The position numbers and the translations under genes were made by a program. Shown here piece after piece: positions 39,216-58,099 of a DNA stretch of 64,000 bases. Origin of the DNA: Verrucomicrobiia bacterium (GTDB taxonomy: Bacteria > Verrucomicrobiota > Verrucomicrobiia > Opitutales > Cerasicoccaceae); contig JAUIHT010000003.1 of the NCBI GenBank assembly GCA_030432235.1, positions 434,001-498,000 on the forward strand, in the 5' to 3' direction. The notes under the pieces were generated by a model. It was not told where the DNA came from. It searched no databases and saw only the letters and a program-made list of their open reading frames with translations. Within the stretch, counting starts at the first letter, position 1, and the number at the start of each line of letters is the position of its first letter.

Positions 39216-39577
39216 CATGCCCCAACGCGCAGTTGCTTCTCTGTGGTAGGGACGCATCTCCGAGGCGTTCGGTTTCATTTTCCCATCAAGGCGCGTTCCT
39301 GCCCGAATGAGGCGTTTTTCGTCGAAGTGTTGCCGCTTCCTCAATCCCCTTGATTGCGCTCAAACTGCCCTATGCGTACATTTATCTGCTCTAGCTAGGC
39401 ATTAATATCGTCTCGATGGGTTTTAGCATTAACTCTATGTTTTTTATTATCTACTCGATTATTTATCTTATTAAATAACATAATATATCGATGTTACAAT
39501 AATTTTTATCTTGTTTCTAATATTACTTATCTAGATACTAATAAGTACTATAAAGTTAATATTATCACTCAACTGAG
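39216..39577. other. AT-rich non-coding gap
   Basis: About 360 bp without a gene. From about 39370 to 39570 the sequence is strikingly AT-rich (many TATTA, ATAAT and TTATT steps) against a GC-rich background. I see no inverted repeat or RNA gene. It may be a bent-DNA promoter region for the next gene or a remnant of acquired DNA. Confidence 0.45.
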
Positions 39578-40246
39578 ATGTCCACACTGGCGATAAAGGA
39601 CTTTCTTCCGCGCATGAACCGCTTTGCGGCGCATTGGGAGGAGGCCGAGACGGCGCTGGGGCAGCAAATCGTTGTCAGACCGGGGGATTGGACCCGCGCA
39701 GACCTCCTTCAACTGCGCGATGAGCTGGACGAAGACGCGGCGGCGCGGTCGGGGACCCGGGTGGGCGTGAAGGAAACCCGCACCGTGCTGGAGGCGGACC
39801 GCGATGCCCTGCTGGGCCGCCTGCTGGACTTCAACCGCAACGTACGCGCGCGGCTGCCGGATACGCCCTTTGCCCACAACCTCCCCAAGGCACGCACACG
39901 TACCCTCGCACCATGGCGTCACGAGAAGAGCTTGCGGGACATGGCCTCGCTCTGGGCGGACATCAACGCCGCGCAGGCCCCCGAGCCCTTTATTCTGTCA
40001 GCCGGATATTCTCTGGATGACTTCCGGAGCGACCTCGACGCCTTTACTGCCGCCATCGACACCTGGCGCAATATTCAGCAGGACCGCAAACTGGTCATCG
40101 CCGAGCGCGCACCCCGCCTCGACGAGGCCTACGCCCTCATGAAAGCCTACCGGCTGACCATCCACGCCCTCTTCGCCCCCGGCAGCGCCATCGTCAACAG
40201 CCTCCCCCGCCTCACCCCGAAGGCGAAACGGAAACAGAAGGCATGA
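39578..40246 (+). CDS. Helical hypothetical protein
   Basis: This 222-residue soluble protein is rich in Ala, Arg and Asp and predicted mostly helical (WTRADLLQLRDELDEDAAARSG, FNRNVRARLPDTPF, DDFRSDLDAFTAAIDTWRNIQQ). It ends in a very basic tail KAKRKQKA. Composition and length hint at a DNA-, RNA- or protein-binding helical bundle, but I cannot name the family. It stands alone, with the AT-rich gap before it and a palindrome cluster behind it. Confidence 0.65.
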   Translation: MSTLAIKDFLPRMNRFAAHWEEAETALGQQIVVRPGDWTRADLLQLRDELDEDAAARSGTRVGVKETRTVLEADRDALLGRLLDFNRNVRARLPDTPFAHNLPKARTRTLAPWRHEKSLRDMASLWADINAAQAPEPFILSAGYSLDDFRSDLDAFTAAIDTWRNIQQDRKLVIAERAPRLDEAYALMKAYRLTIHALFAPGSAIVNSLPRLTPKAKRKQKA

Positions 40247-52797: not shown

Positions 52798-55044
52798 TCA
52801 GTCACTGTAGGGCTGGCCGTTGACCGTTATCGCGTAGCCGTCGCCTGCGCGGGTGATTTCGATGGCGTAGGACTCGCCGCGCCAGACGCGGTTGACCTTC
52901 ACCTGGTCCCAGCCGGTGGGCAAGGCGGGCTTGATAGCCAGCTTATCGTAATCCGGCTGGATGCCGCAGAAGTACTCCAGGACGGCGCGGAACATCCACC
53001 CGGCGCTCCCAGTGACCCACCCGCTGATGGAAGACCCGGCGCGTCCGTTGGCCGGCCCGAGGTACTGGTTGGTGAAGGCGTAGGGCTCGCAGCCGGAGAC
53101 GCTGGAGGGGTGCGCCTCGCTGTCGGGCATGACCTTGTACCAGCTCTCCAGCCCCTTGTCGATGCGCCCTGCCATGATGTCGGCGACGATCTTGAAGGCG
53201 GTGCCGTGGCAGTACGGGGTGCCGTTCTCGTACATGCCGGGCAGCAGCATGGTGACGCGCCCGACGTTCTCGTCCTTGGCCGTATAGTGCGGCCAGAGCG
53301 TCAGCGAGCCGTGGGGGTTGTCGAGGTACTTGTCGACCGCCGCCCAGCACTTCTCCAAACGCTCACCCGTGGCCAGACCGGTGAGCGAGGCCCAGGTCTG
53401 CGTGTTGAGGTAAATCCGGCCCTCCTCGTTCACCTTCGACCCGACGGGGTTACCGAAGTCGCTCCAGCCAGCAAGGTACCAGTCGCCATCCCAGCCGTGC
53501 TCCTCGATGGGGCCACGAATCTTCTCGGCGCGCTCGCGCATCTCGGCCTCCAGCGCGGAGTCTTTCAAAAAGTCGCGGGCCATCTCGGCCACGACGTTGC
53601 AACTGTGGAAAAGCGCCATGGAGGTCCAGACGCTCTCGCCCTTGCCGCCGCGCCCCATCCAGTTGAGCGAGTCGTTCCAGTCGCCCTCGTGCGCCAGGAC
53701 GAGCCCGTGCGCGCCGGTGTCCCCGCTGAGGTGGCGGATGCCTTGCAACATGTGCTCCAGGACCGTGGCCTCGCCCGCGTCGAGGTAAGGCACGACGTCG
53801 TCGAGGATGGCACGGTCGCCGATTTCTTTTAAATAGGCGGCGACGGTCGGCGCGATCCAAGCCGGGCCGTCGGAGTAATGGTGCGGCTGCAAGGGCAGCC
53901 AGCCGCGCACGCCGTGGCCGTCCCGGTGCTGATGGGCGAGGGTCTCCTTGATCTTGGCCTTGGCCAGCGGCGCGTTGAAAGGCAGGATGCCCCAGGCGTC
54001 CTGCAGGGTGTCGCGGAAGCCCCGCGCGCCGTCGCGCCCGAACTCCACGCAGAGCTGCACTTGCTGCTTGGCCCAGATGTTGGTCAGGCGGTTGATTTTT
54101 TCGCAGGGCGTTTCCACCCAAACCTTGTCCAGCATGGCCTGCTTTTCCGCGGTTAACGCGGCCCAGTTTTCCTCGCGGTAAGCGGCTGGGAGCACCTTGG
54201 CGATGAGGCGGTGCTTTTCCTCCTCGGTGTCGAAGCTGCCCAGGAGCACGGTGACTTGCTTGGACTCGCCGGGCTGCAACGCCACCTCAATGGTCAGCGC
54301 GCCGGCCAGCTCTTCGCACCAGGACTCTTTGCACGACAGCTCTCCAGAGAGGAGGCTGTGCGGGGCGGAGGGTTGCCCAAAAGGCCCGAGGAAGTCGCGG
54401 CGTCCACCGCACCATTGGCTGACCTCGCCGTCGGTGGCGACGAAGGCGTTGTAGCGTCCATGCGGGCGTTCGTCGGAAGTGTTGTAACTGCTAACCGCGC
54501 CGAGGTCTGCGTCGAAGGCGCTGCGCAAGTACGAGTACGCGCTGCTGAAGGTGGCGTAGCCACCGATGAGCCACTCCACGTAGGGGGCCAGCCAGAGGCT
54601 GCGCGCGCGGTCGCTGTTGTTGGTCAATGTGAACTCCCAGATTTCGACGGGCTCGTCGCGGGCCAGGGAGACGCGGCTGTCGCTGACGATGCCGGCGTGC
54701 TCGGTGACGAAGCGCGAGTAGCCCAGCCCGACATGCGTGGTCAGCTTCGCACCCTCGGGCTTGATAGGGAAGAGGCCGTTGCTCCAGACCTCGCCGGAGT
54801 CCTTGTCCTTCAGGTAAAAATAGCGCCGCCCGTCGCGGATGAGGCGCACCCGGCCCTGCGGGTGGTTGTACATCAGCGTTTGGTTGTTGAAGACGCCGTC
54901 GCCGCTACCGAACTGGTTCAGCCCCGAAATGAGGGTGTCGTTCCAGAGGAAGTTGACCTGCGCGCGCGGCGGCGCGAAAGGCTCCGTGATGATGTACTCG
55001 AGGTCGTTTTCGGAAAAATGACCGAAGGCGGGCTGGGATTTCAT
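52798..55044 (-). CDS. GH94 glycoside phosphorylase (cellobiose/chitobiose phosphorylase-like)
   Basis: The 748-residue enzyme has the GH94 organisation. The N-terminal beta-sandwich (SQPAFGHFSENDLEYIITEP, GVFNNQTLMYNHPQGRVRLI) is followed by a helical linker and the (alpha/alpha)6 barrel, including FRDTLQDAWGILPFNAPLA. The catalytic acid Asp lies in HEGDWNDSLNWMGRGGKGES. Phosphate-binding-type His/Gly pairs occur near WPHYTAKDENVGRVTMLLP. Substrate could be cellobiose, chitobiose or another beta-disaccharide; the motif reading does not decide. The ATG at 55044 gives the family-typical start; a longer frame upstream is improbable. Confidence 0.9.
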   Translation of the reverse strand: MKSQPAFGHFSENDLEYIITEPFAPPRAQVNFLWNDTLISGLNQFGSGDGVFNNQTLMYNHPQGRVRLIRDGRRYFYLKDKDSGEVWSNGLFPIKPEGAKLTTHVGLGYSRFVTEHAGIVSDSRVSLARDEPVEIWEFTLTNNSDRARSLWLAPYVEWLIGGYATFSSAYSYLRSAFDADLGAVSSYNTSDERPHGRYNAFVATDGEVSQWCGGRRDFLGPFGQPSAPHSLLSGELSCKESWCEELAGALTIEVALQPGESKQVTVLLGSFDTEEEKHRLIAKVLPAAYREENWAALTAEKQAMLDKVWVETPCEKINRLTNIWAKQQVQLCVEFGRDGARGFRDTLQDAWGILPFNAPLAKAKIKETLAHQHRDGHGVRGWLPLQPHHYSDGPAWIAPTVAAYLKEIGDRAILDDVVPYLDAGEATVLEHMLQGIRHLSGDTGAHGLVLAHEGDWNDSLNWMGRGGKGESVWTSMALFHSCNVVAEMARDFLKDSALEAEMRERAEKIRGPIEEHGWDGDWYLAGWSDFGNPVGSKVNEEGRIYLNTQTWASLTGLATGERLEKCWAAVDKYLDNPHGSLTLWPHYTAKDENVGRVTMLLPGMYENGTPYCHGTAFKIVADIMAGRIDKGLESWYKVMPDSEAHPSSVSGCEPYAFTNQYLGPANGRAGSSISGWVTGSAGWMFRAVLEYFCGIQPDYDKLAIKPALPTGWDQVKVNRVWRGESYAIEITRAGDGYAITVNGQPYSD

Positions 55045-55219
55045 GGGCTTCAGGGGGTTGTGTATAAACCGAAAGGAAAGCGACCTGCCAGTGCGCTGGC
55101 AGCACCCGGTATGTTGCAGAACCCCGATTATTACCCGCAAGCCAAATGCCGCTGCCAGTCGGGAGATGACACGCCCTCCATCGGCTTTCGACCCACGAGA
55201 ACAAGCGGTCTGCATCCAT

Positions 55220-55492
55220 TACCGGACCATCCGTCACCCTATACCAACGATTCGTCCAGGCAAACACATCATCGGGATGGCGATCCGGAAGTTTCGGAAC
55301 GTTATCCGAACATTCGGTATAGCGACACGGATATTTCGGATGCCTGTACGGACATTCCGGATAATCACCCGCATCTTCTGGAGAACCATCCGGAAAGTCC
55401 GGATAAGCGTCCGAACGATTCGGATAACGCTCCCAATGACTCGGATGCTTATTCCAAGGCTCCGTTGTACCCTCCCAGCCGTTCGTTAAGCT
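55220..55492. repeat. Degenerate 21-bp tandem repeat, about 13 units
   Basis: From 55283 to 55492 ten consecutive 21-bp units can be laid out without gaps (55283-55303, 55304-55324, 55325-55345 and so on); three weaker units precede them to 55220. Each has a core TCCGGA near its start and TTCGGATA near its middle, so the core is partly palindromic. Units differ by several bases. The period keeps more than one frame open, but I see no ribosome-binding site or family that supports a protein. Confidence 0.8.
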
Positions 55493-55602
55493 TAACGCAT
55501 CATCGAGGAAAGGGAACAGACGGTTCGTTGCATGGAACAAATCGCTCGTGCCATGGCCGGAATGAATCGTTCCACTTCCCAAATCATGAGTCCCACTATG
55601 CC

Positions 55603-55705
55603 AAGCCGGAGGCTTGTAAAGAAATTAGCCAGGGGTTAAGCGAGGAACGAGTGACACCCCTGGTATCATGATACAATAAATTTGCATCCCGGAGGGATGC
55701 CAGCA
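55603..55705 (+). repeat. Left inverted arm of the RAYT unit
   Basis: Outer part (55603-55663) begins AAGCCGGAGGCTTGTAAAGA and ends at CACCCCTGG; inner part (55684-55705) is GCATCCCGGAGGGATGCCAG. They are separated by 20 bases. The right arm (56169-56270) repeats this in reverse with the same 20-base gap; 57 of about 60 bases of the outer part match by my count. Internal hairpins are AAGCC-gga-GGCTT and GCATCCC-gga-GGGATGC. Confidence 0.85.
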
Positions 55706-55718
55706 CCCTCGTTGTAAC

Positions 55719-56165
55719 ATGCCCTCCACCTACCTGAGTCTGCATTACCACATCGTGTTCTCGACGAAAAACCGGGAGGCCATCATCGCACCGCCATGGG
55801 CTCCACGTTTGCACGAATACCTCGGAGGAATCATACGCGGTATGGATGCATTGCCGGAGGCTATTGGCGGTGTCGCGGACCATGTTCATTTGCTGGTGGG
55901 GCTAAAATCGACGCATTGTTTGGCGGATTTTATGCGCGATTTGAAAAAAGCATCTTCGCTGTGGGTACGTGATGAAATGAAGGTGTCGGATTTTGCATGG
56001 CAGGCAGGTTATGCGGCGTTCACCGTGAGCGCCACCGCACGCGAGAGCGTAAGGCAGTATATCGCGAATCAGGAGGAACACCACCGAACGCAAACGTTCC
56101 GGGAAGAGTTGATCGCGTTTTTAGAGCGCGCCGGAGTCGAGTATGACCCCAAATATTTGGATTAG
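55719..56165 (+). mobile_element. REP-associated tyrosine transposase (RAYT, IS200-like Y1)
   Basis: This 148-residue HUH-type enzyme has the HVH metal motif at residues 55-57 (GVADHVHLLVG) and the candidate catalytic Tyr114 in VRQYIANQ. The rest follows the RAYT pattern (STYLSLHYHIVFSTKNRE, DFAWQAGYAAFTVSA). Such proteins cut and join single-stranded REP palindromes. It is bracketed by about 100-bp inverted arms rich in palindromes, and lies next to a 21-bp tandem array and 36 bp from glnS. This is probably a stable domesticated unit and not a typical mobile IS. Confidence 0.88.
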
Positions 56166-56168
56166 AGG

Positions 56169-56270
56169 TCTGGCATCCCTCCGGGATGCACGGGGGGGTG
56201 TTTCGATGTCCAGGGGTGTCGCTCGTTCCTCGCTCAACCTCTGGCTAATTTCTTTACAAGCCTCCGGCTT
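56169..56270 (-). repeat. Right inverted arm of the RAYT unit
   Basis: On the minus strand this reads AAGCCGGAGGCTTGTAAAGA through to GCATCCCGGAGGGATGCCAG, the near-inverse of the left arm (55603-55705), with the same internal 20-base gap (56191-56210). glnS ends 52 bp after it. Confidence 0.85.
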
Positions 56271-56321
56271 AGCTGGATGGAGACCATCGGGTCTCACAAA
56301 AACCGTTCGTTCGCAATTCTC

Positions 56322-57986
56322 CTACTCCCCCTGCTTTGCCCAACTATCCCTTAGCGCCACCGTTCTATTAAAGACGGCTTTCTCGCCGGGTTTATGTTCG
56401 ACGCGGTCGGCGACGAAGTAGCCGATGCGCTCGAACTGGAAGCGGTCCTCGGGGGAAGCGGCGGCGAGGGCGGGCTCGACCAGGGCGGTGACGGTTTGCA
56501 GGGAGTCCGGGTTGAGGAAGTCCAGGAACGACTTTTCCTTGTCGGCGTCGGGACGCTCTTCGGTGAAGAGGCGGTCGTAAAGGCGTACCTCGGCTTCCAC
56601 GGCGTGGTCGGCGCTGACCCAGTGGATGACGCCTTTCACCTTCCGATCCTCGGGATTCTTGTCCAGCGTGTCGAAGTCGGCGATGCAGAGTACGCGGGTG
56701 ACGTTGCCGTCGGCGTCCTTTTCGACCGACTCGGCCTTGACGATGTAGCCGTAGCGCAGGCGGACCTCGCCGCCGAGCTTGAGCCGAAAGAACTTGCGGT
56801 TGGCCTCCTCGCGGAAGTCATCCTTTTCGATGAAAAGCCTCCCGGTAAAAGGCACCTTGCGCGTGCCGGCGGACTCGTCCTCGGGATTGTTGACGGCGTC
56901 GACTTCGAGCACCTTGCCCTCGGGCCAGTTGGTGATGACGACCTCCAGCGGGTCGAGCACGGCCATGCGGCGCTGCGCAGACTTGTTTAATTCCGTGCGG
57001 ATGTGGTGCTCCAGCAGGGCGATGTCGGTCAGGGCGTTGTACTTGGTCACGCCGACCTCCGCGACGAGGGCGCGCAGGGCCTCGGGCGGGATGCCGCGGC
57101 GGCGGGCGGCGCGGATGGTGGGCATGCGCGGGTCGTCCCAGCCGGCCACGTGGCCCTCCTTGACGAGCTGGAGCAGCTTGCGCTTGCTCATGACCGTGTA
57201 GGTGAAGTTCAGGCGCGAGAACTCGGTCTGTTTCGACGGAAAGATGTCGAGGTTCTCGATAAACCAATCGTAGAGCGGCCGGTGCGCTTCAAACTCCAGC
57301 GTGCAGAGCGAGTGCGTGACCTCCTCGATGGAGTCACTCTGGCCGTGGGTGAAGTCGTAGCTCGGGTAGATGCACCAGGTGTTGCCGGTGCGGTGGTGCT
57401 CGGCGTGCTTGATGCGGTAGAGCACGGGGTCGCGCATGTTCAAATTCGGGTGCGCCATGTCGATCTTGGCGCGCAGGGTGCGCTCGCCATCGGTGAACTC
57501 GCCCGCCTTCATGCGGCGGAACAGCTCGAGGTTTTCCTCCACGGAGCGGTCGCGGAAGGGGCTGTTTTTGCCCGGCTCCTCAAAAGACCCGCGGTACTCG
57601 CGCATCTGCTCGCCGTCGAGATCGCAGACGAAGGCCTTGCCGTCGCGAATCAGCTTTTCGGCGAATTCGTAGAGCGTCGGAAAGTAGTCGCTGGCGTAGC
57701 ATTCTTTCGCCCACTGAAAGCCCAGCCACTCAATGTCCTCCTTGATGGAGTCGACGTACTCGGTCTCCTCCTTCTCCGGGTTGGTGTCGTCAAAGCGCAG
57801 GTTGCACAGGCCGCCGAACTCCTCCGCGATACCGAAGCTCAGGCAGATGGCCTTGGAGTGGCCCAGGTGCAGGTAACCGTTGGGCTCCGGCGGGAAACGC
57901 GTTTGCACCCGCCCATCATGTTTGCCGGCAGCGACATCGTCGGCCACCATTTGACGAATGAAGTCCAGTGGTTTCTCTTCGGGCAT
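56322..57986 (-). CDS. glnS: Glutaminyl-tRNA synthetase
   Basis: This 554-residue class I synthetase attaches glutamine directly to tRNA-Gln. HIGH-type motif is [21 protein letters not shown]-type motif is [12 protein letters not shown], and [13 protein letters not shown] precedes it. A C-terminal beta-barrel region is present to the end. GlnRS is not universal in bacteria; many lineages instead use GatCAB amidation. Start ATG at 57986 ([12 protein letters not shown]) is used because the sequence further upstream is a repeat. The gene ends next to the RAYT right arm. Confidence 0.96.
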
Positions 57987-57994
57987 AAATAGCC

Positions 57995-58099
57995 AGCTAA
58001 AAGCCAAAAGCCGAAAGCTGGAAGCAAAAAGCAGATCACCATATAAAACGATTATCGCATAATTATTATCTTTAAGCTTTGTGCTTTCGGCTTTTAGCT
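57995..58099. repeat. AAAGC-type inverted simple repeat, copy 2
   Basis: AGCTAAAAGCCAAAAGCCGA then AAGC (57995 onward) opposes AGCTAAAAGCCGAAAGCACA on the minus strand (58074-58099). The bases in between are AT-rich and hold no gene. It occupies the region between the divergent glnS and uppP starts, and recalls copy 1 at 33356-33434. Confidence 0.6.

Follow-up and report, generated by a model that had tools for sequence, protein, structure and literature searches.

A 64,000-nt stretch of DNA from a Verrucomicrobiia bacterium (the window; positions 434001-498000 of contig C42 in a 5.72-Mb genome of 42 contigs, 95.9% complete) carries a small transposase gene between two mirrored sets of hairpins, with an array of 21-bp repeats close by. 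The locus raises the question whether it represents a large REP unit together with its generator gene, as the original prediction suggested, and which of its parts belong to such a unit. The features, in window coordinates, are as follows.

52798-55047, minus strand: flanking gene, GH94-family protein (Pfam search)
55216-55512, no strand: 21-bp-phased degenerate palindromic array of about 14 units (lag-21 identity)
55602-55704, plus strand: upstream arm (inverted repeat, single-stranded DNA fold, covariation in homologous arms)
55602-55616, plus strand: upstream hairpin A, GGA loop
55625-55628, plus strand: upstream TTAG tag
55629-55663, plus strand: upstream hairpin B
55664-55683, plus strand: upstream B-to-C spacer, 20 nt
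55684-55700, plus strand: upstream hairpin C, GGA loop
55701-55704, plus strand: upstream tail CAGC
55719-56165, plus strand: single-tyrosine HUH transposase, 148 aa (Pfam, NCBIfam, PDB chains, motif table)
56170-56273, minus strand: downstream arm, inverted (inverted repeat to the upstream arm, fold, hairpin matches)
56173-56189, minus strand: downstream hairpin C
56190-56209, minus strand: downstream B-to-C spacer, 20 nt
56210-56244, minus strand: downstream hairpin B, one mismatch
56245-56248, minus strand: downstream CTAA
56258-56270, minus strand: downstream hairpin A
56322-58007, minus strand: flanking gene, class I tRNA synthetase, Glu/Gln type (Pfam search)

The arms proved to be near-identical when inverted, as had been predicted from the sequence: 55600-55663 and 56210-56273 are 94% complementary over 64 nt, and 55683-55703 and 56170-56190 are 100% complementary over 21 nt. 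Each arm is about 100 nt long and carries, in mirrored form, hairpin A, TTAG, hairpin B, a spacer and hairpin C. The expected REP-like hairpins are present in both arms and the two internal gaps are indeed equal, at 20 nt each. Folded as single-stranded DNA, the upstream arm forms three hairpins with a z-score of -4.91 that none of 200 shuffles equalled. The fold of the downstream arm, whose B stem holds the mismatch, is weaker (z -1.39, equalled by 19 of 200 shuffles). A search of positions 54900-56500 against Rfam at E<=1 returned a single chance match to a microRNA (E 0.24, 21.8 bits vs a gathering threshold of 83), and a distant-mode search of PLSDB plasmids gave zero matches. Hairpin C ends 18 nt upstream of the start codon (window 55684-55719) and could for that reason also influence translation of the transposase.

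A Pfam search recognised the open reading frame at 55719-56165 as Y1_Tnp (E 5.3e-24), and it also matches transposase chains in PDB, 2fyx being the best (E 3.4e-10). With NCBIfam models it scored 68.9 bits for IS200, above the cut-off of 55, and 19.6 bits for REP_Tyr_transpos, below the cut-off of 80. According to its motifs (DHVH, WQ and YIANQEEHH), the protein fits TnpAY1 subclass 1.2 and not the class-2 RAYTs, as it carries Y---Q--HH instead of Y---NP. The earlier designation as a RAYT therefore holds for the Y1 (HUH) transposase and fails for class 2. In the set of 81 proteins formed by the window protein and 80 relatives retained from 123, Y---Q--HH was found in 77, DHVH in 68 and DHIH in seven.

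In the account of Quentin et al. (2018; PMC6006769), subclass 1.2 consists of 148-aa proteins with DH[IV]H, WQ and Y---Q--HH, occurring in few divergent copies per genome, mainly in Cyanobacteria and Bacteroidetes, and is described as lacking REP and as not IS-like. The window protein has the same length and the same motifs (DHVH, WQ, Y---Q--HH) and is likewise low in copy number and divergent. Its own genome holds three homologues, the other two being 43% and 48% identical to it, and no near-identical gene-bearing copy was found in this 95.9% complete assembly. It differs in its hosts, since record titles assign 51 out of the 80 named relatives to Verrucomicrobia/Kiritimatiellae or Planctomycetes, and in what surrounds the gene. 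While subclass 1.2 is reported there as REP-free, at 63 of 79 loci the gene stands between the two halves of an inverted repeat scored at E<=1e-5. These 79 are the window and the 78 relatives whose flanks each reach 150 nt or more; two of the 81 were omitted because of shorter flanks. The remaining 16 loci were without such a repeat at this threshold. None of the 79 had one when the upstream side was shuffled, nor did any locus with 500 nt available there when DNA 1.5 kb further downstream was used. Arms around an enzyme of this subclass are thus new with respect to that one paper and to a search of the open-licence PMC literature, which yielded no description of REP-like arms in subclass 1.2.

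Of 22 homologues tested within the order, the paralogues of the source genome among them, 15 were bracketed by an inverted repeat (23 near full-length matches had been chosen, one of which, L025, was dropped as too short). The mirrored pair around the gene occurs across several phyla; the arm sequences vary, and many of them retain the order of A, a tag ending in TAG, B, spacer and C. A strict scan for A, TAGC, B and C recovered both arms at 19 of the 81 loci, one arm at 24 and neither at 38, the window itself being scored as one-armed because its downstream hairpin B is mismatched. In several Bacteroidetes relatives only two hairpins are present and B is absent. At eight Bacteroidetes loci (L110, L112, L113, L116, L117, L118, L120 and L130) and in one member of the Ignavibacteria (L126), arms of two GNA-loop hairpins lie by the gene, the hairpins belonging to the type ATCCCGAAGGGAT / ACCCCGAAGGGGT or differing little from it.

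In order to examine the hairpins as structures, two sets of arms were aligned. The first comprises 54 of 67 arms found, 13 having been removed for thinning, and its picking script demanded stems and TAGC. In this set 97.5% of the cells pair, 19 of 23 pairs vary on both sides, and none of 500 shuffles reached any of five covariation measures. The base preceding TAG is mostly T or G in these arms, for which TAGC had been demanded; the tag of the window is TTAG. The second set consists of 69 arms from three genomes (G047, G026 and G030) that lay outside the model-building set, yet were fitted to the model. Here 98.8% of the cells pair, and 190 two-sided changes compare with 60 one-sided ones, 54 of which fall at the two loop-closing pairs. 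The rarity of one-sided changes in the stems would fit Watson-Crick DNA hairpins better than RNA. Among 44 arms from loci with an inverted repeat and two hairpins, the loops of A and C read G-N-A in 72 of 88 cases. The bases following A and C agree within an arm beyond what permuted arms show (P 0.0045, computed on 32 arms after those of the 44 with CAG in both tails had been set aside). Many relatives have CAGC after both A and C; the window arm has it after C.

The original prediction expected the arm palindromes to recur in the genome, as singlets or as inverted pairs, and both other copies and pairs were found. GCATCCCGGAGGGATGC has six exact, two one-mismatch and three two-mismatch occurrences in the genome vs two for a reversed control; AAGCCGGAGGCTT has seven exact occurrences and 20 when one mismatch is allowed, vs 10 for its control. 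Six of the seven exact AAGCCGGAGGCTT matches are inside arms, and the seventh coincides with a weak hit of the arm model (E 0.126). The arm model has 16 matches at E<0.001 in the source genome, the two of the window among them. Several arm copies form inverted pairs from which the gene is absent; one such tail-to-tail pair with no intervening gene is located at C37:1008629-1008836.

Gene-free pairs with the same orientation are also found in other genomes. When arms are close (gap <=60), they stand tail-to-tail in 13 of 14 cases in G047, in four of four in G026, and in two of two, one of them overlapping, in the source genome. Each of 12 genomes picked for possessing the gene contained arms, 5-142 each and 444 in total, 11 of the 12 having supplied arms to the model. 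Among 150 listed of the 444 arms, 29 of 30 pairs with gaps <=80 were tail-to-tail, as were eight of eight with gaps of 420-700 nt, space enough for the gene. G030 is an exception, with nine of 11 close pairs arranged head-to-tail, as counted on 42 of its 43 arms. At one locus of this genome (L166, G030:C79:63900-65800), eleven arms succeed one another, ten in the same orientation and mostly separated by 5 nt, which reads as a tandem of whole arms and not as inverted pairs. Among the repeated units of G047 we noted one pair whose homology extends beyond hairpin A on one side.

Among 54 genomes from the order, nine, the source genome included, yielded arms at E<=0.01, with 43 in G030 and 76 scored in G047. 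The gene was found in 14 and both in five (P about 0.04), so that gene and arms co-occur weakly across the order. Four of these genomes had arms without a detected gene, one of them being 50% complete, and nine had the gene without these arms.

Arm families also lie beside the paralogues of the source genome. A scan for the arm layout in 1.264 Mb of this genome, a sample partly selected around known arms, gave 17 hits vs 0 in one dinucleotide shuffle, and by eye the hits fall into several sequence families. The paralogue at C42:281473 (L012 / L188) lies between arms of one such family. A second family adjoins the paralogue at C34:127596 (L013 / L189) on one side only, and the test for a bracketing inverted repeat failed at L013. 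Further members of the two families occur in other parts of the sample. A different arm family lies beside each of the three genes.

Several other explanations can be considered for a gene placed between such arms. A normal IS200/IS605 insertion sequence of TnpAY1 subclass 1.1 whose ends are atypical would agree with the IS200 model score and with the nearest solved structures, which are transposases of such kind. We nevertheless hold it to be unlikely, as no near-identical copy of the gene was found but only the two divergent homologues, both ends are one mirrored sequence, and the 16 arm matches exceed the three genes. It is quite unlikely, too, that the arms are regulatory DNA of the host, i.e., terminators or mRNA hairpins, with the gene merely lying between them. 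Hairpin C is terminator-like on the minus strand, and its short distance to the start codon makes a regulatory side role possible, but terminator-like sites are not commoner than in shuffles (1 vs 1.6). The scarcity of one-sided changes outside the loop-closing pairs, the mirrored pair that brackets the gene in several phyla and the gene-free tail-to-tail pairs all argue in the same direction.

The least probable of these explanations is a classical TIR transposon whose MITEs are mobilised by another (DDE) transposase. Long terminal inverted repeats and short, gene-free copies are indeed MITE-like, but the gene between the arms encodes an HUH/Y1 enzyme, the arms consist of several small hairpins, each of which shows internal covariation, and no target duplications were evident by eye in the flanks of the window element.

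We therefore consider it probable that the locus belongs to a REPtron/REPIN-like system driven by an enzyme from the IS200 side. It has the look of a mobile repeat family in miniature, accompanied by its copying enzyme. Of the unit that the original prediction proposed, the HUH transposase gene, the REP-like arms and the copies elsewhere stand, and the 21-bp array drops out (see below).

Single-stranded DNA is exposed at replication forks, and we posit that an arm pair could become single-stranded there, for example, and that the enzyme would then attach to the arms in their folded form. The gene product would be a single-strand endonuclease and strand transferase, with the mirrored three-hairpin arms as its substrate. 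The tag ending in TAG next to hairpin B might guide the choice of a nearby CA or CT cut site; the order of parts in this guide model is based on the end layout of IS608. The occurrence of CAGC after both A and C in many relatives suggests CA as the cut site, which we put forward as a proposal. The arm pair would then be excised and rejoined elsewhere, with the gene between the arms or without it, and different genes may act on arm sequences of their own that share a similar layout. Binding, cut site, guide role and mobility are what we infer from these patterns. For TnpAREP, a tetranucleotide adjacent to the hairpin is described as the likely guide of cleavage, CT or CA being chosen through pairing with parts of GTAG (PMC8266576).

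In the published work consulted, the enzymes that spread REPs belong to class 2. The REPtrons of class-2 RAYT/TnpAREP, as they are presented in PMC3733652 and, with cleavage assays, in PMC8266576, share with our system a tyrosine HUH gene between tagged hairpins, dispersed gene-free hairpins and repeats that differ between enzymes. They differ from it in having Y---NP where the window protein has Y---Q--HH, a single REP of 20-40 bp where we find an arm of about 100 nt with three hairpins, and a 5' GT[AG]G tag where the window has TTAG. REPINs, according to the description of Bertels and Rainey (2011; PMC3116915), are likewise dispersed, gene-free inverted doublets, an arrangement from which the mostly head-to-tail pairs of G030 depart, but in our case three hairpins together make up each half. 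TIRtrons/TIRYT, as outlined in PMC3733652, also consist of a transposase gene framed by long inverted repeats, which are able to recur in the genome; here, however, tagged hairpins lie within the repeats and the protein is class 1-like, whereas 20 of the 26 TIRYTs of Quentin et al. fall into subclass 2.1, which has an HTH domain at the C-terminus (PMC6006769). GTAG repeats have been listed for the verrucomicrobium O. terrae, and several families for R. baltica (Di Nocera, 2013; PMC3733652).

If an IS200-near enzyme indeed runs a parallel system, domestication into a repeat-spreader would have happened more than once. Palindromic repeats in Verrucomicrobia, Planctomycetes and perhaps Bacteroidetes would then gain a candidate generator. 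The shared layout with differing sequences would make recognition testable through arm swaps among the paralogues of one genome.

The predicted 21-bp tandem array next to the upstream arm exists: lag-21 identity reaches 0.60 over 126 nt within 55216-55512, giving about 14 units. TRF alone reported 2.2 copies, and the fold of the array has a z-score of -2.65, equalled by two of 200 shuffles. Similar arrays are present elsewhere in the source genome. At lag-21 identity >=0.55 over 126 nt, eight were found in 284 kb that had been chosen for closeness to arms or homologues or that belong to the window, and three in the other 980 kb of the sample. In the first 864 kb, the same threshold was passed at seven places for lag 21, eight for lag 42 and four for lag 63; among other lags the highest was lag 69, with four places, and the mean of the others was 0.16. 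In 800 kb sampled from six relatives, no place reached lag-21 identity >=0.50 but one, with 0.51, in G005.

It would be very unlikely, in our judgement, that the array and the transposase arms make up one unit. The window array lies 90 bp from hairpin A, eight of the 11 arrays at the 0.55 threshold are in the smaller, arm- and homologue-rich part of the sample, and among 12 arrays studied (these 11 plus L261, just under the threshold) four lie <=200 bp from a layout hit vs 0.69 expected in intergenic gaps (P 0.004). On the other hand, the nearest layout hit is 0.7 kb away for one of the 12 and at least 1.9 kb away for four, and three have none in their 20-kb stretch. At 107 relative loci, lag 21 does not clearly stand out (eight places, the same as for lags 36 and 51). 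Since such arrays occur away from arms and are not in clear excess in relatives, we judge the array to be outside the element, at variance with the original prediction, and take the arrays as a separate feature sharing intergenic space with the arms.

Nine of the 12 arrays overlap heuristic ORFs by at most a quarter, 10 can be aligned with their reverse complement (E<=1e-4), and seven have a consensus that is palindromic beyond all 500 column shuffles; some have sequence families in common. They were also considered as coding sequence, which was rejected, as in eight of the 12 not one of the six frames is open throughout. Tentatively, we suggest that they could constitute a separate, mostly intergenic class of DNA, degenerate arrays phased at exactly 21 bp, or two helical turns, with varied units and, in most, self-complementarity. 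Such a class would need a process that measures two turns, be it copying or selection for helical phasing, in which the same single-strand enzymes might participate. No report of 21-bp-phased arrays in such bacteria was found in the open-licence PMC literature.

A second 21-bp-phased array is situated in the window at 39323-39578; it is A+T-rich (GC 0.31), lies in an inter-ORF gap and is without self-complementarity at E<=1e-4. By eye, the 21-bp units seem to reverse orientation midway in three arrays (L256:3751-4142, L179:5777-6238 and L186:1111-1508), and the L256 array folds as single-stranded DNA with a z-score of -7.29 that none of 100 shuffles equalled. Tandem arrays of heptamers were seen near transposase homologues at L025:964-1235 and L098:2718-2959.
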